Shown: in pieces, positions 6,088-16,020 of the stretch
How the letters are laid out: every line of letters begins with the position of its first letter
Position numbering within the stretch: position 1 is the first letter of the stretch
NCBI RefSeq assembly: GCF_030295995.1
Contig: NZ_AP027365.1
Coordinates: forward strand, 2,202,066 to 2,266,065
DNA from: Thalassotalea hakodatensis
Lineage (GTDB): Bacteria > Pseudomonadota > Gammaproteobacteria > Enterobacterales > Alteromonadaceae
Reading direction: 5' to 3'
DNA: 64,000 nt
Made by a program: the position numbers and the translations under genes
The notes under the pieces: generated by a model
The model's input: the letters and a program-made list of their open reading frames with translations, nothing else
Databases searched by the model: none
What the model was told of the DNA's origin: nothing

Positions 6088-6115
6088 CTTCATCCTTGTT
6101 TAACAGCTTGTTAGC
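6088..6115 (-). other. attC right-end fragment
   Basis: ATCCTTGTTTAACAGCTTG followed by the core GTTAGCT (6109-6115) matches the end of the intact attC at 13,792-13,892. The amidohydrolase stop codon lies inside the core, as in other cassettes here. The rest of the site is missing. Confidence 0.6.
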
Positions 6116-7557
6116 TATTTATTAACCATCAAATTCTCTCTAGCTATGGGGTCTCCATGCAAGATAATCGTTTCTATACGGTTCCACGATTCTATAGAGT
6201 CTAAAGGATTAGTTTTAAGCAGCAGAAGGTTAGCAACTTTACCAACTTCTAAAGTGCCATAATCTTTATCAATTCTGAATTGTTTAGCATTATTAATGGT
6301 TGCCGCCGCCAGTACTTCTTCCAGCGATAGCCCTGCGGCAACCATAGCTTTCATTTCTTGGTAAGTTGTCAGTCCAGGTTGATTGGCAAAACTAGGACTT
6401 CCAGGGAAGTCCGAAGCCAATAAAATTGGATGGTTAGAACTTCTTAGATATTGAATGACTTTATTACCTTTTCCTATTCGCCCATATAAAAATGCATCTG
6501 AGATTGATTGATCAGGCATTCCATCAAAACCAATTCGAAGTTCCTCCTTGAACCACTGCGCCTCACTCGTTTTATACCAATCTATAAGTGACTTAGGCGT
6601 AATGGATGAAAATTCAGGAGAATTAACAATAGCAGGTAGCATTACTTCACCTAAGCCAGCAATCACTCTTTGTGTAGGCATATAGCCTATTTTGTTATTA
6701 ATCATTACATCCAGAGTGTTAGATATCTCCTTAGGTATATCTTTCTCGCGATTATATTGCCCCCAATTCCACATACCATGAGCGATCACATCAACATCTG
6801 CGCCAAGTGCTAATTGTTGCATATCTAAGGCATTAGCATGAGCTACTATAAGTAAATTAAATTTTTCAGCCGCTATTTTAATTCGCTTTAGCGTATTGGT
6901 TGATAATGTTTGCCATTGACTAGCGTTACCATAACCGTCTTCAAAATAAATTTTTATACATGAAGCACCTGAATCGGCAATTTCACCAACTAACCTTTCT
7001 ACTGAATTTACTGCGGTTGCCTCTGCACTTTCATCAATTAAATAAGTAAACATTGATCTTGATAGATCATCTGTTTTTTCTACATACGGAAAGGTATTCT
7101 TTGATGTTAATACCTCACAGCGAAAATAATCAGGGTGATGAGGCGCCGAAGTAAAATAGTCGAAACTCACTCCCGGATTAGGATCAAGTATTTGAGTGAC
7201 CCCATAATATAAAAAGCTTCTTGGTTGTTGCTCAAAATAAGCCTTTACGAGTTTTGGGTTCTTAATAGCCACAGGTTCAACACCAAAACCCATACCAGGA
7301 ATTGACGAAACATGCGCATGGCTATCCATAAGACCAGGCGTTAAGAATTTTCCCGAACCATTTATTTTAAGATCGTAGGATGTAATCTTTTTGTTAGTTA
7401 TTTTGGTAATTCGTCCATCATTTATTAATACATTCATCTGAGTTTTTGGAACTTGCAAGTGAGATGAAACTATAGTGACATTTTCTATTAGAACTTTGCT
7501 CTCCGCCAATGAAGAAAAAGAAAACAAAGAAATTGAGAGTAATAATACCTTAATCAT
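6115..7557 (-). CDS. exported amidohydrolase-family protein
   Basis: 480 residues with an N-terminal signal peptide (about residues 1-18, ending SLAES), so it is secreted to the periplasm. The TIM-barrel metal-dependent hydrolase signature is clear. HAH at residues 80-82 follows LTPGLMDS, a Lys sits in CIKIYF (about residue 200), histidines occur in VAHANA and IAHGMW, and the last metal ligand is the Asp of LLASDFPG. The C terminus has the usual small beta domain (GTLEVGKVANLLLL). Substrates in this group include Xaa-Pro dipeptides and imidazolone-like rings; the actual one is unknown. It is unusually long for a cassette gene. Its stop overlaps an attC core. Confidence 0.83.
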   Translation of the reverse strand: MIKVLLLSISLFSFSSLAESKVLIENVTIVSSHLQVPKTQMNVLINDGRITKITNKKITSYDLKINGSGKFLTPGLMDSHAHVSSIPGMGFGVEPVAIKNPKLVKAYFEQQPRSFLYYGVTQILDPNPGVSFDYFTSAPHHPDYFRCEVLTSKNTFPYVEKTDDLSRSMFTYLIDESAEATAVNSVERLVGEIADSGASCIKIYFEDGYGNASQWQTLSTNTLKRIKIAAEKFNLLIVAHANALDMQQLALGADVDVIAHGMWNWGQYNREKDIPKEISNTLDVMINNKIGYMPTQRVIAGLGEVMLPAIVNSPEFSSITPKSLIDWYKTSEAQWFKEELRIGFDGMPDQSISDAFLYGRIGKGNKVIQYLRSSNHPILLASDFPGSPSFANQPGLTTYQEMKAMVAAGLSLEEVLAAATINNAKQFRIDKDYGTLEVGKVANLLLLKTNPLDSIESWNRIETIILHGDPIARENLMVNK

Positions 7558-7910: not shown

Positions 7911-8885
7911 TTACGCTAATAGCTTTTCACAATTAGCAAGATTGCTTCGCCGTTTTCGGTGTTGGTGTTGGCAGTATTTAGTTAAGCTATCAACATCGCC
8001 TACAGCACCTCTAAAGCAGCGACTAAACTGTTGGCTTAGTGTAACCCAGTTACCGGCACTGATATTCAGGCGAGTCAGTAGTTTAGGTTGGTGCTGTGCT
8101 ATATAGCCTTTTTTATCTTCTCTGATACAACGCCCAGTTAATTCCACAAGCTCAAGGTAATCTGTTAAACAAAACGGTAAGCCTGCAGGGCTACCTTTGC
8201 TCGGATTACCAACAAATGGTGGTAACTTTTCAGGCTGTTTGCCTTGAATAGCCGCCTTGATGCGTAGTTTGATGCTTGTAAAGTCTGAAGTTTCTGGTGT
8301 TTTGGCGATATTAGCTCGAATGGGGTTTAAGTCTACATAAGCCATACAAGCGGCAAGTGCTTTTTCATCAAGTAGTGCTTGAGAGCTAAACCGCCCTTCC
8401 CAAAATCTGCCTTTGCAATTGTCTTCTCGATTGGCTTGTCTGGCAATAGACTCATTTAATAACCGCATCAACCAACTAATGTCCATGAGTCGTTTACGGT
8501 ATTGCTCAGCCGTTTGCCTAACGATATCTATCATGGGAGCTAAAAGCTCTTCACCGCGTAAATACTTTTGTGTAAGTAATGTACCCTTAAACAATTGATG
8601 CCAACGCTTTAGCACCTCATCCATCGACCAACTGTTTGCTGTTTCTTCATCAACAAACAAAACCAAATGTACATGGTTACTCATCACCGCATAAGCACAC
8701 ACATCAATGGCAAATACGTCACTAAGTTGAAACAGTCTATTTTCCACCCATTGTCTTCGGTGCTCATAACTTTTTCTAGTAACGACATCTTTGCCACACA
8801 AAAACGCACGGCGAACACAACGGGAAATACAATGATAATAAGGTGTAGCCGCCAAACATACTTGACGACTTCTGGCGATAGTCAT
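7911..8885 (-). CDS. Y1 (IS200/RAYT-like) transposase
   Basis: 324 residues. The N-terminal Y1 HUH domain carries the metal-binding pair as HVHLVLF, preceded by AVMSN. The candidate nucleophilic Tyr lies in the AYVDLNPIRANI segment near residue 185. The length and layout fit the REP-associated tyrosine transposase-like group common in Alteromonadales rather than the short IS200 enzyme. The N terminus (MTIARSRQVCLAATPYYHCISRC) is typical of that group. It interrupts the cassette array and lies upstream of two 35-base tandem repeats. Confidence 0.85.
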   Translation of the reverse strand: MTIARSRQVCLAATPYYHCISRCVRRAFLCGKDVVTRKSYEHRRQWVENRLFQLSDVFAIDVCAYAVMSNHVHLVLFVDEETANSWSMDEVLKRWHQLFKGTLLTQKYLRGEELLAPMIDIVRQTAEQYRKRLMDISWLMRLLNESIARQANREDNCKGRFWEGRFSSQALLDEKALAACMAYVDLNPIRANIAKTPETSDFTSIKLRIKAAIQGKQPEKLPPFVGNPSKGSPAGLPFCLTDYLELVELTGRCIREDKKGYIAQHQPKLLTRLNISAGNWVTLSQQFSRCFRGAVGDVDSLTKYCQHQHRKRRSNLANCEKLLA

Positions 8886-8942
8886 TTCGCTTCCTTGCGA
8901 TTGATTTACAATGACTCAAAGATTAGACAAACGTTGGAATTA

Positions 8943-9009
8943 TTCAAGTTAAATATGGGTGTCTAGATTATTTTTTGTTCAAGTTAAAAATGGGTGTCTA
9001 GTTTATTTT
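8943..9009 (-). repeat. two tandem 35-base units next to the Y1 transposase
   Basis: TTCAAGTTAAATATGGGTG (from 8943) and TTCAAGTTAAAAATGGGTG (from 8978), each followed by TCTAG and a T-rich run, form two near-identical units at a 35-base period. They lie upstream of the transposase start and end at the truncation point of the IS3 copy. They may be transposon end repeats or a REP-like unit. Confidence 0.65.
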
Positions 9010-9273
9010 CTTTTTAAGCTTTTGAATTGCAGACAGTTCTTTTTGGGTGGGGACTTTACTCATTATTTCATTGCTGCCCTGGTAGCGCTGATGCTTAGAG
9101 AATTTACCTTCTCTGTATTCCTTCCGCCAACGACTGAGCATAAACGGGTGAATATCAAGTGCTAAAGCAACATCCTTTGACATGACATTGTCTTTTAAGC
9201 TTAGTTTGACTACTTTGATTTTGAAACTTACTGGGTAAAACCATGTTTTTCTAGGTTGTGTATATTTGGGCAT
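8998..9273 (-). pseudogene. IS3-family transposase OrfA, truncated copy
   Basis: The frame from ATG 9273 encodes MPKYTQPRKTW and then a helix-turn-helix (VALALDIHPFMLSRWRKEY), as in IS3-family OrfA. It runs to LKKKIN, where homology with the second copy (12,417-12,789) breaks off at about base 9009. OrfB is missing. The N-terminal reading frame is intact here but frameshifted in the other copy. It cannot transpose by itself. Confidence 0.8.
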
Positions 9274-9325
9274 TGTAGCCTCCTCAATATGATGAGGAGG
9301 TGTCCACCAAAACGGGGGAGGTGCA
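9009..9325 (-). mobile_element. truncated IS3-family element (right end only)
   Basis: Bases 9009-9325 are nearly identical to 12,525-12,841 of the full copy, including the terminal GGTGTCCACC...GGGGGAGGTGCA end. The other end is lost at the Y1-associated repeats. The terminal CA (9324-9325) is directly followed by TGTCC and the remaining half of an attC. Confidence 0.85.
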
Positions 9326-9350
9326 TGTCCGTTCTTGAGCGCCTTGTTAG
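9326..9350 (-). other. attC remnant (HTH-membrane protein cassette)
   Basis: TGTCCGTTCTTGAGCGCC and the core TTGTTAGG form the gene-proximal end of the attC of the following cassette. The outer part was removed with the truncated IS3 copy. Confidence 0.7.
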
Positions 9351-9352
9351 GT

Positions 9353-9946
9353 CTATACTTTCACAAAGTTATGCCGTAGTTCTTTATACGCCATGATCAA
9401 TAAGGCTGCACCACCAGCACCAAACATAAACAATAAGAAAGAAGGAGACATTCCATTAACTAACCAATAGATGCACGCAGCAATAAAAAGTGTAATTAAT
9501 GGCGCACCGATAACAATTAACCCTGTTTCAATATACTTTTTGTTCCTGAATGCATAAGCTAAGGCTGGAGCAGAAACCATAAGCCCGATAATGAACCCCA
9601 ATATATTTAAGGTGGCAAATAGATCTGATTGAGGGCTAGGTAGTCGACCCGATTCACTTACCGCCGCAACAGTAATGATTATTAAGCCAATTAATAACGA
9701 ACCAAATAAAAATATAGGTCTCTGGTTTACAGATTCGTTCTCTTCTTCTTGCAAGTCCTTAACATTAACATTGAATGTAGCGGCAAGACTCACAACAGTA
9801 TTAATAGATGCTATACCTTCTGCTTCAACACGCTGAATAGTACGCAAGCTTATGCCCGATGCTGTAGCCAGCTGATCTTGAGGCCAGCCTCTATCTAAAC
9901 GCAAACGACGTATTGTATTAGGTGATATTTTCATTTCATATTCCAT
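9353..9946 (-). CDS. HTH (XRE/Cro-type) protein with membrane domain
   Basis: 197 residues. Residues about 8-62 are a Cro/C1-type helix-turn-helix (NTIRRLRLDRGWPQDQLA, then SLRTIQRVE). A polar linker follows, then four predicted membrane helices (around 76-95, 110-130, 140-160 and 168-185). The ATG at 9946 has an AGGAG ribosome site 6 bases upstream. This is a one-protein membrane-bound regulator layout. It is cassette-encoded and ends at an attC core. The signal and target genes are unknown. Confidence 0.8.
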   Translation of the reverse strand: MEYEMKISPNTIRRLRLDRGWPQDQLATASGISLRTIQRVEAEGIASINTVVSLAATFNVNVKDLQEEENESVNQRPIFLFGSLLIGLIIITVAAVSESGRLPSPQSDLFATLNILGFIIGLMVSAPALAYAFRNKKYIETGLIVIGAPLITLFIAACIYWLVNGMSPSFLLFMFGAGGAALLIMAYKELRHNFVKV

Positions 9947-10046
9947 CGTAGACTCCTGTAGGTTTGTACTACGAGAACCCTACTAAATCCCTTATCCTTT
10001 CCATACGACACTTTACCGCCAACAGCCGCCAATGCGCCGCAAATAG

Positions 10047-10146
10047 ACCTAACGCCCATATTAGCAGGCAAATTGTGCTTGGCTATAATTTGGAACGCAG
10101 TGACAAACGCCAAGCTCCATTTGTCCTGCTGAATTTTTTGTTAGGT
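10047..10146 (-). other. attC site (first ORF-less cassette)
   Basis: Cores ACCTAAC (10047-10053) and GTTAGGT (10140-10146) bound an imperfect palindrome whose arms include GCTTGGCT and GCCAAGC. The stem differs from the attC of the sister cassettes, but the last 20 bases are the same as theirs. Confidence 0.85.
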
Positions 10147-10390
10147 GAATTTACTTGAGCATCAGTTATTTAGCAAGTGGTTCGATTCTCTACTGAGCCT
10201 GATTGTTTAACCCAAAAACTTAAACCTGAACTAAGCAACAAGCAGTGTGTAAAAATAACAGAAACTGCCCTGCCAATGACACCAAACCAAGCCGCAACTT
10301 TTTAAACACCAGAATCACAATAGTTGAGTTGAAAACAAATCAAATTGTTAAACACTAAACCCAACAAACGATAACTAAATGAGTTATTCA

Positions 10391-10494
10391 CCCTAACGCT
10401 TATATTAAACGGCTTAAAATGATTGGTTTGCTTTTTTGCGCCTTGCAAAAAACGAGACAAGCTTTTTAAGTCCGATTTGAATTTTTTGTTAGGT
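10391..10494 (-). other. attC site (second ORF-less cassette)
   Basis: Cores CCCTAAC (10391-10397) and GTTAGGT (10488-10494), 104 bases. The stem arms include AAAACGAGACAAGC and GATTGGTTTGCTTTTTTGCG. It is practically the same as the sites at 10,739 and 15,573. Confidence 0.85.
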
Positions 10495-10738
10495 GAATTT
10501 ACTTGAGCATCTGGTATTTAGCAAGTAGTTCGATTCACTGCTGAACCTGATTATTTAACCCAAGAACTTAAACCTGAACTAAGCAACAGGCAGTGTGTAA
10601 AAATTAAAGAAAACTAGATTGACGATAACTCCAAACTAAGCCGCAACTTTTTAAACACCAGAATCACGGTGTTGGAATAAAAACAAATCAAGTTGTTAAA
10701 CACTAAACCTAATAAACCATAAGTAAATGAGTTATTCA

Positions 10739-10842
10739 TCCTAACGCTTATATTAAACGGCTTAAAGTGGTTGGTTTGCTTTTTTGCTCCTTGCAAAAAA
10801 CGAAACAAGCTTTTTAAGTCCGATTTGAATTTTTTGTTAGGT
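10739..10842 (-). other. attC site (third ORF-less cassette)
   Basis: Cores TCCTAAC (10739-10745) and GTTAGGT (10836-10842), with the same stem as the previous site and a few base changes. Confidence 0.85.
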
Positions 10843-11085
10843 GAATTTACTTGAGCATCTGCTATTTAGCAAGTGGTTCGATTCACTGCTGAACCTGATT
10901 GTTTAACCTAGAAGTTAAACCTGAACCAAGAAACAAGCAGTGTGTAAAACTAAAAGACAGCTACCCTGCCAATGACACCAAACCAAGCCGCTACTTTTTA
11001 AACACCAAAATCACAGTGTTGAAATATAAACAAATCAAGTTGTTAAACACTAAACCTAATAAACCATAAGTAAATGTGTTATTCA

Positions 11086-11187
11086 CCCTAACGCCCAAAT
11101 AAGGGGCTGATTAATAGTTTGCTAAAATGTGAAGCGGAGCGGAACCGAGCAAACTGTTAGCAGTCCCACTTAATTTTCTTGTTAGCT
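11086..11187 (-). other. attC site (small membrane protein cassette)
   Basis: Cores CCCTAAC (11086-11092) and GTTAGCT (11181-11187). The arms TAGTTTGCT and AGCAAACTGTTA pair. The loop side carries GAAGCGGAGCGGAACC. It ends 4 bases before the stop of the next gene. Confidence 0.85.
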
Positions 11188-11191
11188 TGCT

Positions 11192-11473
11192 TTACCACTG
11201 TTCTTCTTTTTTGCGGATAATGCCAACGATACGATTTTGTTTTAAACCTATATAAACTCGATTAATTATCTCAAATAAAGCACCTATAAGAGCAATAACT
11301 ATAATTATATCGAACACACTCACAATAGTATTCGTTGTCTCATTGATATCAAAGGAAAAGAAAAATGTGACTACCCAAATTACAGGTAATATAAGCAACC
11401 AGCTTATGAGACTTGCGATAAATCCATTTATTATTGAAATAATTAAAAGCTTCATTCTTTCCTTAAATGCCAC
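11192..11473 (-). CDS. small membrane protein, 93 aa (cassette)
   Basis: No recognised family. Two strong membrane helices (about residues 10-38 and 50-70) are flanked by basic residues, with a charged C terminus (RKKEEQW). Small two-helix proteins of unknown role are typical of integron cassettes. The stop lies just before an attC. The start is followed upstream by the next attC core (from 11,488), leaving little space for an own promoter. Confidence 0.65.
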   Translation of the reverse strand: MAFKERMKLLIISIINGFIASLISWLLILPVIWVVTFFFSFDINETTNTIVSVFDIIIVIALIGALFEIINRVYIGLKQNRIVGIIRKKEEQW

Positions 11474-11487
11474 TCTAGTCTATAGCT

Positions 11488-11563
11488 AGCTAACGCCTCA
11501 TTAAGAGGCAAAAAATTGTTGGCTAAAATTAGCGACGAAGGAGCAAAAGCCAACTGTTTTTTG
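11488..11563 (-). other. attC site, outer part, split by IS3 insertion
   Basis: The core AGCTAAC (11488-11494), the arm TTGGCTAAAATTAGCGAC and the returning arm AGCCAACTG lie on this side. The rest (TTGTCC...GTTATGT) is at 12842-12867, across the IS. Removing the IS and one copy of the 3-base duplication restores a site of about 99 bases. Confidence 0.85.
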
Positions 11564-11598
11564 TGATCTTCCCCCGCAAAAGTGGACACCTTCCACTT

Positions 11599-12486
11599 TT
11601 ATTTTCCTGCCAATTCAAACTCAACTGGTGGTTGATATCCTAAACTTGAATGCAATCGCTGTCTATTGTAAAAGTAATTTAAATAACCTTTTAGTTTAGA
11701 ATGTAACTTACTCATTGTTTCAAAACGATTTCCTCGAATGATGTCAGCTTTCAATGAGTGAAAAAACGACTCCACTTCCGCATTATCTGTGCAGCATCCA
11801 GGCCGGTTCATACTGGCATTAATATTGTGAATTTTTAAGTAGTGCTGAACATTGTGGGCTCGATATTCGGCACCTCGGTCAGTATGAAATAATACTCTTT
11901 CAGTGGGTTTGCGTTTTTTAATGGCAAGCCGCAATGCTTTTAACGTCAGCTCAGTTGATTTGTTTTTACCAAAGGCCCAGCCAATAACACGACGAGAGTA
12001 TAAATCGATAACGACAGCAAGGTAATGCCAACGTGCACCAACTTTAAGATACGTGATATCACCCGACCATTGCTGGTTTGTCGCTGTCGGCTTGTCTATA
12101 TTTCTACGCTTATTTTGAATTTCCTTATAGAAAAATTTAACCTTAGCTGGTTTGCTATATGTCTTAATTGCTCTAGCTCTCAAGCCACTCTCTTGCATTA
12201 ACCTTGCAACCCGCTTCTTGCTTGTTCTTATACCTGATCTTTTCAACGCATAAAACACACGGGGGCTGCCATACGTCTGATGATTAGCATGAAACACGGC
12301 TTTTATTTGCTGCAATAAATCTGCATCTCTTAACACTTTGGCTGATAAAGGACGATTACGCCAAGCATAAAAACCACTGGGAGAAACGTTGAGCCAATCA
12401 CAAAGGTACTTCACACCTAAGATTTGTCCGAACTTGTGGATGAATCCAAATCGCTCTGATGTACTTCCGCCAGATACCGTTGCCAC
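11599..12486 (-). CDS. IS3-family transposase OrfB (DDE integrase)
   Basis: 295 residues with the rve-type integrase core. The DDE triad is Asp143 (GDITYL), Asp203 (HTDRG) and Glu239 (NAEVESFF). The N-terminal HTH_21-like part (YGSPRVFYALKRSGI) is present. It overlaps the end of OrfA by 70 bases; in this family a programmed -1 frameshift normally makes the OrfAB fusion. The protein looks complete. Because OrfA upstream is damaged, the functional fusion transposase probably cannot be made. Confidence 0.92.
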   Translation of the reverse strand: MATVSGGSTSERFGFIHKFGQILGVKYLCDWLNVSPSGFYAWRNRPLSAKVLRDADLLQQIKAVFHANHQTYGSPRVFYALKRSGIRTSKKRVARLMQESGLRARAIKTYSKPAKVKFFYKEIQNKRRNIDKPTATNQQWSGDITYLKVGARWHYLAVVIDLYSRRVIGWAFGKNKSTELTLKALRLAIKKRKPTERVLFHTDRGAEYRAHNVQHYLKIHNINASMNRPGCCTDNAEVESFFHSLKADIIRGNRFETMSKLHSKLKGYLNYFYNRQRLHSSLGYQPPVEFELAGK

Positions 12487-12789
12487 TTTTTTAGCAAGTC
12501 GTTCTCCAGTTTCAGACGCTCATTTTCCTTTTTAAGCTTTTGAATTGCAGACAGTTCTTTTTGGGTGGGGACTTTACTCATTATTTCATTGCTGCCCTGG
12601 TAGCGCTGATGCTTAGAGAATTTACCTTCTCTGTATTCCTTCCGCCAACGACTGAGCATAAACGGGTGAATATCATGCTAAAGCAACATCCTTTGACATG
12701 ACATTGTCTTTTAAGCTTAGTTTGACTACTTTGATTTTGAAACTTACTGGGTAAAACCATGTTTTTCTAGGTTGTGTATATTTGGGCAT
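12417..12789 (-). pseudogene. IS3-family OrfA, frameshifted
   Basis: The expected ATG is at 12787-12789. Near 12,672 two bases are missing compared with the sister copy (TATCATGC against TATCAAGTGC at about 9154), which breaks the frame. The downstream part (12417-12659) still reads MLSRWRKEY and a leucine-zipper-like helix (LKKENERLKLENDLLKK). Confidence 0.85.
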
Positions 12790-12841
12790 TGTAGCCTCCT
12801 CAATATGATGAGGAGGTGTCCACCAAAACGGGGGAGGTGCA

Positions 12842-12867
12842 TTGTCCTTTTAAATGACTTGTTATGT
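12842..12867 (-). other. attC site, gene-proximal part after IS3
   Basis: TTGTCCTTTTAAATGACTT and the core GTTATGT (12861-12867) complete the attC begun at 11488. Confidence 0.85.
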
Positions 12868-12869
12868 TT

Positions 12870-13241
12870 TTAGGCCAAGGGCGACATGAAGTCACCCCGC
12901 CAAAGATTACATCAGTAACAAAATCAAAAAAGCAGATGCTTTAATGATAGCTGCTACATCTAAAGTAACCTCGATTTTCGAAGTTTTAAATGTGAACATG
13001 ATAGTTCCTAAATTAAACCCCGAGCCGGCTCAGGAAAATTAAACACCTGAGCTTTACGTCACAGGCCAGTGACGCCATAAGAAAGATTGCAGCCTTTCAG
13101 ATGGATTAGGTGACCGACCAAAGTCACCGTCGAAGAGTGGCCCTATTAATGAAACTATTTAGCACCGCCAAATAAGAATAAATTAATAGCTCTTCTCACA
13201 ACCTATCAGAGTACGACTCTGCTAGGTGATGTTCATTAAAA
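12870..13241 (-). ncRNA. candidate structured RNA filling an integron cassette
   Basis: The cassette body has no long ORF but a series of strong stem-loops. These are 13201-13211 with 13217-13227 (11 bp, one mismatch), 13109-13114 with 13123-13128 (GGTGAC/GTCACC), 13081-13085 with 13094-13098 (GAAAG/CTTTC), 13057-13062 with 13069-13074 (CGTCAC/GTGACG) and 13028-13034 with 13046-13052 (GCTCAGG/CCTGAGC). Hairpins are symmetric, so the strand is inferred from the cassette direction and from a ribosome site plus 30-codon ORF that follow on the minus strand. No known riboswitch family was recognised. Confidence 0.45.
12907..12999 (-). CDS. possible 30-aa hydrophobic small protein (cassette)
   Basis: ATG at 12997-12999, preceded by AGGA with 6 bases between it and the start, and stop TAA at 12907. 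The peptide starts MFTFKTSKIEV and ends with a hydrophobic stretch (AAIIKASAFLILLLM). It follows the hairpin array closely. Size and character recall toxins of type I systems, but no family is recognised, and the frame could be chance. The ribosome site supports it. Confidence 0.4.
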   Translation of the reverse strand: MFTFKTSKIEVTLDVAAIIKASAFLILLLM

Positions 13242-13342
13242 ACATAACGCCTCGTTAAGAGGCAAATAATGCTTGGCTATAATTTGGAACGCAGTGAACA
13301 AAGCCAAGCTTTATTTGTCCATGCTTTAACGACTTGTTATGT
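13242..13342 (-). other. attC site (structured RNA / 144-aa boundary)
   Basis: Cores ACATAAC (13242-13248) and GTTATGT (13336-13342). The arms TGCTTGGCT and AGCCAAGCT pair around GAACGCAGTGAAC. The stop of the 144-aa gene lies in the core. Confidence 0.88.
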
Positions 13343-13771
13343 GGCTGGCCACTCTGGCTCATCATTTTCGCCATACAACACGCCAAAATTAATATTTGTT
13401 AGTTTATTGAAGCTGAACTGAAGTTCTAGCCATTCTTTTTCATAAGTTACTGATACGAATGAGCCATAATCATCAATCATTGGTTCTGAATCCAATTCAG
13501 AACTAATAGTGGCTATAACTTCAGTCATAGCTTTACCAATAAGACGATGCCCAAATATTGTCACGTTATTATTGTGAACTTCAATCCACCCAAGGCGATG
13601 ATCGTTTTCGGCTTCAAAGGATAACTCAAGTAAAAGTTCATTAAACTGCAATCGTTTATTTTCTTCATCGGTGAAGAAGATTTTGTCAGGTTTACCCAAC
13701 GAAGCTATTACTTGTTGTTCAGAAAGACCAAAAAGAATTGAGTCCATTCCATAACCTAATGTGATTTCCAA
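13337..13771 (-). CDS. hypothetical protein, 144 aa (cassette)
   Basis: I do not recognise a family with certainty. The protein is acidic and beta-rich, without signal or membrane segment. It starts MEITLGYGMDSILFGLSEQQVIASLGKPD; the SLGKPD part recalls proteins in which a short helix precedes a repeated beta sandwich, sometimes immunity-like. The stop codon TAA overlaps the attC core, and the gene fills its cassette. Confidence 0.65.
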   Translation of the reverse strand: MEITLGYGMDSILFGLSEQQVIASLGKPDKIFFTDEENKRLQFNELLLELSFEAENDHRLGWIEVHNNNVTIFGHRLIGKAMTEVIATISSELDSEPMIDDYGSFVSVTYEKEWLELQFSFNKLTNINFGVLYGENDEPEWPAT

Positions 13772-13791
13772 TGCTTGAATCCTTTAAAGCC

Positions 13792-13892
13792 ACATAACGC
13801 CCGCCTAACAGGCGTAAATAGCTTGGCTAAAATTAGGAACGAAGTGACGTAAGCCAAGCTTTTTACGTCCTTTGTTGAGGCGCTTGTTAGCT
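13792..13892 (-). other. attC site (144-aa / HEPN boundary)
   Basis: Cores ACATAAC (13792-13798) and GTTAGCT (13886-13892). The outer arms CGCCCGCCTAACAGGCG and the inner arms AGCTTGGCT/AGCCAAGCT form a clear stem. Confidence 0.88.
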
Positions 13893-14681
13893 ATCTTTTA
13901 CTCTGTGGTAGCCATGAAAATGATGTGAAACACCACTTTTAGAGTTTTTAGATAAAACATCGTGTCTATCGCGATAGTAAACGTATAGTTCATCTGCTAA
14001 TTCAACGCACGCATGAAGAACTTCTTTGACCTCTTTTACAACAACATCATAAATTTTGTCTCGTGACTTTTCGTAAGTTTTGACCAAATCGTAGCCACTG
14101 ATACTTGAACTGTGTGATTCTGCCCAAGACATATTTTTAAACATTTGGTCATCTTCAGTATATAAATTACAAAAGCCTTTATGAGCTCGTTCATTGCGAT
14201 CTTGGCGAAGTGGAGCCCCTGTTTGATCTATAACTTTTAAGTGCTCCAGTATTTCGGGGTAATTTTCCCTTAGTACTTTGCTCAATTGCTTAATATTTAG
14301 CTTATAGTCAGGCAAATTAATTTCTAATACTTCGTTTACAAAATGAAATGCAATATCCCTCAAACTTGAAAATCGGAATAATGCTAAATCAACGATAGAT
14401 TTTAACCAGTCGTATCTATTTATATTTTGAACTGTAGAAGGCAAAGGAACTTCTTTTGCTCCTAACATCTGAGGAATTACCCGTAAGTCTACAAACTGTT
14501 GTTCTAAAGCATCAAACCTGACATAAGTTAAATGTGCGTATGCCATATGTGGATCTGCTGCTTTGAATTCTTCCCAATTTTTGTACGGGTGGTCATGTAA
14601 GAAGTACATGTTAATAGAGTCATAAAGAACGCCCTTGAATGTTGACTCTTCAAGATCCCACCAAAAGTATTCAGTTTCCAT
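13887..14681 (-). CDS. HEPN-like domain protein, 264 aa (cassette)
   Basis: A mostly helical, soluble protein. Residues 162-167 read RNERAH, the R-N-x3-H form of the Rx4-6H motif that marks catalytic HEPN ribonuclease domains. It lies between long helices (residues 93-150 and 198-243). Proteins of this type (for example Cthe_2314-like HEPN) occur in toxin and defence contexts. The partner antitoxin usually encoded next to HEPN toxins is not seen within this cassette. The stop overlaps the attC core. A HEPN fold is plausible but is inferred from one motif and helix content. Confidence 0.55.
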   Translation of the reverse strand: METEYFWWDLEESTFKGVLYDSINMYFLHDHPYKNWEEFKAADPHMAYAHLTYVRFDALEQQFVDLRVIPQMLGAKEVPLPSTVQNINRYDWLKSIVDLALFRFSSLRDIAFHFVNEVLEINLPDYKLNIKQLSKVLRENYPEILEHLKVIDQTGAPLRQDRNERAHKGFCNLYTEDDQMFKNMSWAESHSSSISGYDLVKTYEKSRDKIYDVVVKEVKEVLHACVELADELYVYYRDRHDVLSKNSKSGVSHHFHGYHRVKDS

Positions 14682-14706
14682 CTTGCTCCCTGATTACACC
14701 GAAGAT

Positions 14707-14824
14707 AGCTAACGCCGCTATCACTGGACAGCGGGCTGTAGTTGTAATTTATGTTAACGGAGCGGCAGCGTAGTGCATAAATTGCAACGAAGGACTGCTG
14801 TTCCGGTGGATAGCCTTGTTATAG
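14707..14824 (-). other. attC site, longer variant (118 bp)
   Basis: Cores AGCTAAC (14707-14713) and GTTATAG (14818-14824). The stem pairs GCCGCTATCACTGGACAGC with a return arm GCTGTTCCGGTGGATAG, and TTGTAATTTATG with CATAAATTGCAA. It differs in sequence from the other sites, which suggests a cassette from another source. Confidence 0.8.
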
Positions 14825-14829
14825 CCAGA

Positions 14830-15108
14830 TTACGATTTAGAATCATGTTGATTGATTATGCTGTCTTTGTCGCTATTGATTACCGAGCTAAGTAGATTAC
14901 CATACACCTTGCTTACTGGATTTATTAGATAAGCGACACACAATCCCATAAGCTCAATGCCGATAATAATGAGCACTAAATCTAACTCCAAACCGCCTAA
15001 GAAGTACGCAAAAAGAACACCGAATGCGATGAATGTGGATATTTCATATCCTCGCTGCAATCTTATTAATGCACGATGTTTCTTAATATCTTCTGCGGAT
15101 AATTCCAT
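14830..15108 (-). CDS. small membrane protein, 92 aa (cassette)
   Basis: No family recognised. Two membrane helices (about residues 23-42 and 43-66) follow an N-terminal charged helix (SAEDIKKHRALIRLQRGYE). The C terminus is polar. The stop lies 5 bases from the attC core. Possibly a small membrane effector or immunity protein, but nothing in the sequence fixes this. Confidence 0.65.
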   Translation of the reverse strand: MELSAEDIKKHRALIRLQRGYEISTFIAFGVLFAYFLGGLELDLVLIIIGIELMGLCVAYLINPVSKVYGNLLSSVINSDKDSIINQHDSKS

Positions 15109-15121
15109 GATCCATCCTTAG

Positions 15122-15214
15122 CTATAACGCCCAAATATGGGGCCGTAGTGTAGGCGCGAAGCGCCGAAACGGAGGTCCCAGCAGCTTTGCTGCGACATGA
15201 TTTGCTTGTTATAT
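15122..15214 (-). other. attC site (93 bp)
   Basis: Cores CTATAAC (15122-15128) and GTTATAT (15208-15214). The internal hairpin GGCGCGAAGCGCC and the GCAGCTTTGCTGC hairpin are strong. Confidence 0.8.
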
Positions 15215-15218
15215 GCTA

Positions 15219-15560
15219 CTACCACAATTGCCACCAACTCTTTGGCTTAACGTAGTTAATTTTAACAACGCTGGAACCCAACTGTTGGGGAGCCAATTCA
15301 ATAATTCCACTAGATTGAAGTAAGCGGAGCTGACTCTCAACATCTTGGCTGAAACGACTCACCTTTAGCTCCAAAGTTGCATTACTAAAGCCAGATTGCG
15401 TAAGCCTGATGAAAGCTAGCAATTTACTCTTGGTCGAGGCGCCGCTTAAATCTCTAATGGTAAATATTTGAGTATGCGAATCAAAATCAGCAATGGACTT
15501 AATAGCGCCGTCTTCGTAGCACCACTCATCTCCCTTTTGAGTTTTCCAATTACTTCTCAT
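15219..15560 (-). CDS. hypothetical protein, 113 aa (cassette)
   Basis: No family recognised. A soluble protein: an N-terminal beta part (MRSNWKTQKGDEWCYEDG), then helices with a possible winged-helix-like end (QDVESQLRLLQSSGIIEL), finishing WWQLW. The stop lies between attC sites. The size is typical for a cassette ORF. Confidence 0.6.
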   Translation of the reverse strand: MRSNWKTQKGDEWCYEDGAIKSIADFDSHTQIFTIRDLSGASTKSKLLAFIRLTQSGFSNATLELKVSRFSQDVESQLRLLQSSGIIELAPQQLGSSVVKINYVKPKSWWQLW

Positions 15561-15572
15561 GCTTCCCCGTGC

Positions 15573-15676
15573 ATATAACGCTTATATTAAACGGCTTAAA
15601 ATGATTGGTTTGCTTTTTTGCCCTTTGCAAAAAACGAAACAAGTTTTTTAAGTCCGATTTGAATTTTTTGTTAGGT
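15573..15676 (-). other. attC site (fourth ORF-less cassette)
   Basis: Cores ATATAAC (15573-15579) and GTTAGGT (15670-15676), with the same stem as the sites at 10,391 and 10,739. A distant relative of the three tandem copies. Confidence 0.85.
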
Positions 15677-15920
15677 GAATTTACTTGAGCATCTGCTATT
15701 TAGCAAGTGGTTCGATTCACTGCTGAACCTGATTATTTAACCCAAGAACTTAAACCTGAACTAAGCAACAAGCAGTGAGTAAAAATAACAGAAACGGCCC
15801 TGCCAATGACACCAAACCAAGCCGCAACGTTTAAAACACCAGAATCACGGTGGTTCAATTAAACACTATACTCGTAGTTAAACACTAAACTTAACAAACA
15901 ATAAGTAAATGAGTTATTCA
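15677..15920 (-). repeat. fourth copy of the ORF-less cassette body
   Basis: This body is closely related to the bodies at 10,147-11,085, including GAATTTACTTGAGCATCTG and CCAAACCAAGCCGCAAC. It differs in the last 80 bases, where the short peptide frame is lost. Confidence 0.8.
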
Positions 15921-16020
15921 CCCTAACGCCTCATTAAGAGGAAATTTTCAGTTGGCTAAAATGTTGAACGCAGTGAAAACAGCCAACTGTAAATTTTCCT
16001 GCTTTAATGACTTGTTATGT
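15921..16020 (-). other. attC site (zinc-ribbon protein cassette)
   Basis: Cores CCCTAAC (15921-15927) and GTTATGT (16014-16020). The arms AAATTTTCAGTTGGCT and AGCCAACTGTAAATTTTCC pair almost fully, with one extrahelical base. Confidence 0.88.

Follow-up and report, generated by a model that had tools for sequence, protein, structure and literature searches.

An insertion sequence (IS) lodged in an attC array of Thalassotalea hakodatensis very probably represents a lineage of IS3-family elements, with OrfA and OrfB (OrfAB), a DDE transposase, TG..CA ends and a 3-bp target duplication, that targets the R''-L'' half of integron attC sites. The stretch of DNA analyzed (the window, 64,000 nucleotides) corresponds to C1:2202066-2266065 of a genome formed by a single contig, C1, of 4,275,310 bases. 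The insertions lie in the R''-L'' half in one orientation, 23 to 24 nt from the R'' box, and at a point that in the folded window site is beside the extrahelical base; the transposase is encoded on the strand that bears R'' and codes for the cassettes.

The window holds a full and a truncated copy of this IS (Table 1). A first-pass annotation of the sequence had placed both within one base of the same point of the attC right arm, with the full copy between TTG and TTGTCC as a TTG duplication and the truncated copy ending just before the TGTCC of a different attC, and our analysis bears out each of these statements. The junction of the truncated copy falls at 9325/9326, next to TGTCC in an attC that differs in sequence from that of the full copy. 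On the minus strand, the T of TAACAAG lies at 12864 for the full copy and at 9349 for the truncated copy, and the IS starts 23 and 24 nt after it, respectively. Counted from GGA, the corresponding values are 3 and 2. The one-base difference between the two junctions is real. Segmental duplication was rejected as the source of the two copies because the flanks outside the attC motif differ. The truncated copy breaks off next to a gene (7911-9010) with a match to Y1 (IS200-like) transposases and a repeated ..ATGGGTGTCTAG.. motif, and this gene is a possible cause of the truncation.

Table 1. Copies of the IS and associated attC features. Positions are those of the window unless preceded by C1.
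Feature	Position	Strand	Details
Full IS3-family copy	11564..12841	-	1278 bp; ends TGCACCTCCCCC..GGGGGAAGATCA
orfB, DDE (rve) transposase	11599..12486	-	Pfam rve 4e-24; NCBIfam NF033516
TTG target duplication, attC loop side	11561..11563		
TTG target duplication, R'' side	12842..12844		TCC follows
R''-L'' half of interrupted attC	12845..12866	-	TAACAAG from 12864; top half-site score of 128,000 window positions
Remainder of interrupted attC (stem, loop, L', R')	11489..11563	-	covariance model match 11489-11581; fold of joined empty site
Truncated copy of this IS; only the transposase-5' end is left	9006..9325	-	~320 bp kept
R''-L'' half beside truncated copy	9326..9351	-	TAACAAGG from 9349; rank 7 of 128,000
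attC array around the copies	10048..16019	-	intact attCs at 10048, 10392, 10740, 11087, 13243, 13793, 14708, 15574, 15922
Weaker attC match in array	15123	-	covariance model
Full copy	C1:2594012-2595291		1280 bp; attC sequence both sides
Full copy	C1:726830-728109		attC sequence both sides
35-bp end remnant	C1:726088-726122		attC sequence at loop side only

A DNA search of the whole genome returned three full copies, one truncated copy and one remnant of 35 bp, in three separate places. All three full copies have attC sequence at both ends and the truncated copy at the one end it retains (R''), and all five sets of IS-derived junctions abut attC at the identical point and in the identical orientation. 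To count the available targets we used a covariance model built from eight window attCs, in place of a fold-plus-box scan that had returned many false sites; eight of the nine strong array attCs therefore match it by construction and the one at 15574 independently. At E<=0.01 the model gave 22 matches, three of them the opposite strand of others, leaving 19 attC-like places, a lower bound since 150 of 731 first-look candidates were scored. Together these places, which include the interrupted window attC itself (C1:2213554), amount to ~2 kb or ~0.05% of the 4.28-Mb genome. Because they are so few, chance is not a serious cause of five attC junctions out of five, even with tenfold more sites. 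Palindromes of ~50 bp, each composed of a pair of IS left ends in inverted orientation, were also observed beside or inside attC remnants, at G000 C1:726086-726136 (L013/L025) and at G004 C14:1735 (L026), and these may be footprints of aberrant transposition or forms resembling miniature inverted-repeat transposable elements.

Relatives were collected by DNA searches of 5 genomes of the genus and 395 of the family (20 of the latter repeated) and by profile searches of 394 genomes of the order (repeated with a second profile), 369 of the class and 398 of the phylum, plus one contig scan. Between two and six candidates per genome were scored in the family DNA search and in the order, class and phylum profile searches, and only some of the matches had their loci fetched; the counts given here are therefore samples. 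Relatives named in the contig scan were Thalassotalea, Colwellia, Cognaticolwellia and one Shewanella, with a distant ninth match in Avibacterium. Complete copies were selected on IS end patterns, a length of 1200 to 1330 bp, a transposase motif and at least 30 nt of flank, ignoring the sequence of the flank; the end patterns use IS letters only and were drawn up after many flanks had been seen. Some copies escape these patterns: L028 and L080 were counted with the partial copies, and the set does not include the longer copies of G787.

The selection yielded 41 distinct complete copies from 26 genomes or records. In every one the transposase strand carries a TAAC[A/C] box of R'' type ahead of the transposase-5' end of the IS. 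The distance from the start of the box to that end is 23 nt in 19 copies and 24 nt in the other 22. By comparison, such a box was present at 1067 of 208,000 random positions in the fetched loci (~0.5%) and at 816 of 127,920 window positions (~0.6%). It was absent at that distance from all 34 copies of other IS3 elements used as controls, including the 28 with inverted repeats matching at 14 or more of 24 positions; the control ends were found automatically and some may be wrong, and loci without ends or duplicated loci were dropped. The first-pass annotation had named in advance, as the test of an attC preference, the alignment of collected flanks in search of a repeated motif; this alignment gave the recurrent flank TAACAA..GGACAA/IS (the slash marks the junction), non-attC sites proved exceptional, and the preference holds for this genome and for the relatives sampled from many genera. 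The distance to R'' is kept throughout a set of 42 sites (the 41 plus the truncated window copy) in which GGA is missing from its expected place in 13. Anchoring on GGA or L'' alone was for this reason rejected as insufficient, and two sites with GGA ending at 22 have their junction at 24. Forty further distinct 5' junctions, mostly of decayed copies, show the box at 23 to 25 nt in 24 cases and, by eye, a variant differing by one or two bases in nine.

One copy, with ACC duplications, sits in a short attC of the IncC conjugative plasmid pKAZ2, and two loci were found in a collection of viral contigs. The window protein found no match in the plasmid collection searched with it, and none was found in a phage collection.

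The coding content of the element is that of an IS3-family member. Its OrfB protein matches the NCBIfam IS3 transposase NF033516 with 300 bits against a cut-off of 160, and the Pfam domains detected are rve, HTH_21, rve_3 and HTH_Tnp_1, the last in OrfA, so that the element combines an rve-type DDE OrfB with a helix-turn-helix OrfA. TG..CA ends are present in 41 of 41 complete copies, as required by the selection, and an identical 3-bp duplication in 21. An A6G motif lies at the overlap of orfA and orfB with both frames in register for a -1 frameshift, by which OrfA and OrfB are probably fused. The full window copy is probably not autonomous, since compared with the 1280-bp copy at 2594 kb it carries a 2-bp deletion in orfA near 12675.

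How the target is read was assessed with a two-block half-site profile, built from 38 sites of other genomes and run on both window strands (128,000 positions). The site of the full copy ranked first and that of the truncated copy seventh, and the top 12 consisted of both insertion sites, the nine strong intact attCs and position 6113, which the covariance model does not call. No R' arm appears among these 12; in the window attCs R' reads TAACGC as against TAACAA for R''. The linear half-site thus carries enough information to account for the preference for attCs and also for which arm is used. The minus-strand positions 6113 and 5112 have high half-site scores without a strong match to the attC model, one of them directly after the stop of an amidohydrolase-like open reading frame (ORF, 6115-7557), and are possible attC remnants.

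We favor the reading that the transposase complex recognizes the R'' box and L''-like sequence as duplex DNA and joins the IS at a fixed distance, and consider it somewhat more probable than not. The lean toward duplex DNA comes from five duplication-bearing sites and an insertion in flhB, none of which shows a recognizable complete attC. CGTTA was found within 190 nt on the far side of 25 of the 41 copies, with at least L147 and L173 possibly there by chance, and a variant R' box was seen by eye in six more (L053, L103, L116, L117, L184, and L242). Nine duplication-bearing copies are without CGTTA; four of them (L053, L103, L184, and L242) are among those with the variant box, and the other five of the 21 duplication-bearing sites (L030, L146, L148, L174, and L176) have no recognizable second (R') arm. 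In a test of complementarity between half-site and far flank, none of these five reached p<0.05 (p values of 0.64, 0.06, 0.65, 0.46, and 0.95, respectively), compared to 6 of 12 duplication-bearing copies with CGTTA. The flhB insertion (L191) is a 254-bp internal-deletion derivative with a GGC duplication at the site CCTAACAAGG, with the T at 24 nt. The joined flhB frame is open over 344 codons and its pieces match positions 1-91 and 101-329 of the Bac_export_2 profile. This insertion is supporting, not conclusive, evidence for duplex recognition.

Like the integron integrase, the transposase could instead read attC as a folded, single-stranded hairpin, with the extrahelical base setting the insertion point. 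When the joined window site is folded as its bottom strand, the duplication coincides with the three pairs beside the extrahelical T, which gives a folded target some probability, and most targets do resemble complete attCs when the 25 copies with CGTTA and the six with a variant R' box are taken together. We nevertheless regard this as the lesser possibility, given the five duplication-bearing sites without a recognizable second arm, the target inside flhB, and the fact that the linear half-site by itself singles out the sites.

Several observations weigh against duplex recognition or limit what can be drawn from the evidence for it. The half-site profile was learned largely from attC arms, which means that it shows the information to be sufficient and not that the enzyme uses it. 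The complementarity test is only half-sensitive, missing 6 of 12 expected attCs, and the fold z-score, which scatters from -2.7 to 0.1 over a fixed stretch of 12 attC-like targets, fails to separate the classes of site. The flhB site itself forms an imperfect hairpin (z of -1.9) and has a half-site score of 6 bits only. Further, the 23- to 24-nt ruler is not assignable to R'' alone because the architecture of attC nearly fixes the distance between R'' and L''.

Other points count against targeting of attC as such. Seven of the 40 partial 5' junctions have no R'' box (L021, L035, the second end of L037, L046, L051, L063, and L190), and the left end of the G004/Thalassotalea copy (L015/L075) lies in a frame of the phage-integrase family (58 bits against a cut-off of 27.1) and not in an attC; the other end of this copy is lost. 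An exact 3-bp duplication is missing from 20 of the 41 complete copies, among them two of the three full copies of the present genome and L249, which has a 4-bp repeat, and for these recombination between copies or decay must be assumed. They may be traces of cassette deletion or inversion through homology between IS copies at several attCs.

The crossover point of attC recombination is the R' box. Copies might never have transposed into attCs and might have spread as passengers of cassettes mobilized by the integrase, or through recombination between ISs, as the 20 copies without exact duplication would lead one to expect. The available part of a study of the Vibrio cholerae integron provides a precedent, as IS3 copies recombine there (PMC11023631). 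We consider this very unlikely for the element described here: the attC halves vary from copy to copy, duplications are present at 21 of 41 insertions and in unrelated attCs, the copies of this genome lie in three separate places, and the integrase crossover is elsewhere in the site. A rival in which the IS inserts anywhere and persists only in silent attC spacers could draw on attCs being intergenic and dispensable, but it is hardly credible. Survival cannot account for insertion at just two neighboring bases and in a single orientation in all 41 copies, with 0 of 34 in other IS3 elements.

By the mechanism we propose, the transposase complex would read an R''/L''-like half-site and join the IS 23 to 24 nt from the R'' box, moving by the copy-out-paste-in route expected from its family. 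Arrays of attCs would then act as repeated intergenic landing sites, and an attC that has been entered would be split and probably disabled.

A tree of 52 OrfB proteins was used to place the trait within the family; 11 loci without a usable frame were left out, including L098, L103, L140, and L179. The 18 rows inserted in the L'' arm (group I) form one clade with support of 97/90. Its sister comprises L118, L120, and L130 (joint branch 98/98), which had first been labelled as having no attC and on rereading show attC arms on both sides (L130), on the 3' side (L120) or an R'' box on the 5' side only (L118). The next branch (L119, L122, L125, L127, and L135) is inserted in attC-like sequence at other places. 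In all, 26 of the 52 rows make up one side of a branch supported at 100/99, and for the other 26 attC targeting was not seen or the site is unresolved. For L098, L103, L140, L179, and L213 to L215, assignment to group I is based on ends and transposase sequence instead of the tree; L213 to L215 represent three additional families, and L214 a different class of the phylum. It is close to an even call, on the doubtful side, whether attC targeting is ancestral to a deep IS3 branch whose DDE transposases read the R'' box, a box used by the integron integrase too, in duplex DNA with a 23- to 24-nt ruler. Under that reading group I and, from few copies, group III would use the R''-L'' arm and group II would insert at other places of attC-like sequence. 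Groups II and III both rest on few copies; in the plasmid collection the group II query had one match and the group III query none. If targeting is ancestral, these elements would be integron parasites of long standing that form a class apart from the RNA-guided IS1111 type.

Two further sets of IS3 elements were noted near attCs. The five copies of the branch next to group I and its sister have ends such as TGATCTTGCACCC or TGAACTAGCACCAC, with L122 in opposite orientation. L108, L111, and L113 have ends of the form ..CGAG/TACCCC, L111 and L113 just past an attC R' box and L108 near attC sequence, possibly a further integron-associated preference.

No integron integrase was found in the 64-kb window. 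The sole match in the genome above the integron-integrase cut-off spans C1:2391330-2392277 and lies 125 kb beyond the right end of the window. This open integrase frame adjoins an inverted second frame with partial integron-integrase matches (G000 C1:2390206-2392277). Within the array, positions 10140 to 11090 are occupied by similar tandem stretches of ~350 bp without a recognized ORF, each with an attC (10392 and 10740), and the attC at 15574 resembles these two.

Group IIC-attC introns encode a reverse transcriptase. Comparisons with this and other known systems draw on the available parts of the papers cited. These introns are mobile elements that invade attC sites (PMC8876359) and are reported to insert opposite to the cassettes (PMC9229058); they share attC invasion with the present element but are ribozyme introns, whereas it is a DNA transposon codirectional with the cassettes. 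Its protein frames are those of transposase OrfA and OrfB, which sets it apart from the introns, although no ribozyme search was made. A parallel in behavior is the IS1111-attC group (ISPst6 and ISKpn4), which targets cassette attC sites at one place by means of a DEDD transposase and a seekRNA (PMC11187229). The present element works like this group without being a member: it has a DDE/rve IS3 OrfAB, TG..CA inverted repeats and 3-bp duplications in place of DEDD and a guide-type seekRNA, and its Pfam and NCBIfam matches are of rve/IS3 type, with none of IS110 type. Within the IS3 family, IS1397 and ISKpn1 are specific for repetitive extragenic palindromic (REP) sequences, or palindromic units, a specificity attributed to the transposase (PMC1525189). 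They share with our element a dispersed palindromic target, REP in their case and the attC R''-L'' half in ours; REP was not searched for and IS1397 is not among the proteins of our tree. IS3 copies are also present in the V. cholerae superintegron, where one insertion is described as interrupting the coding sequence of a cassette and another as lying in the last cassette, without target duplication (PMC11023631), resembling ours in their location in a cassette array and differing in that no attC specificity is described in the available text. The available part of a Shewanella survey reports no IS interrupting an attC (PMC9229058). A literature search of open-licence papers, which did not cover ISfinder or subscription papers, returned no attC-specific IS3 element. 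The element is therefore a member of the IS3 family, and while attC targeting was already known for the IS1111-attC group and group IIC-attC introns, the IS3 type appears to be new among them.

Strict site specificity is uncommon among DDE transposases, and how such an enzyme reads its target is an open question. The lineage described here offers dozens of natural insertions that share one position in a DNA site already studied in depth, and as it has IS3 sisters without the trait, the determinant of the target can be mapped. For integron biology it is a parasite that splits attC sites and may freeze cassettes in place, while copies at several attCs would provide homology for deletion or inversion of the intervening cassettes, as far as the sequence alone suggests. 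By inserting at one precise spot of attC, this IS group would make integron arrays its habitual landing place in marine and other bacteria.

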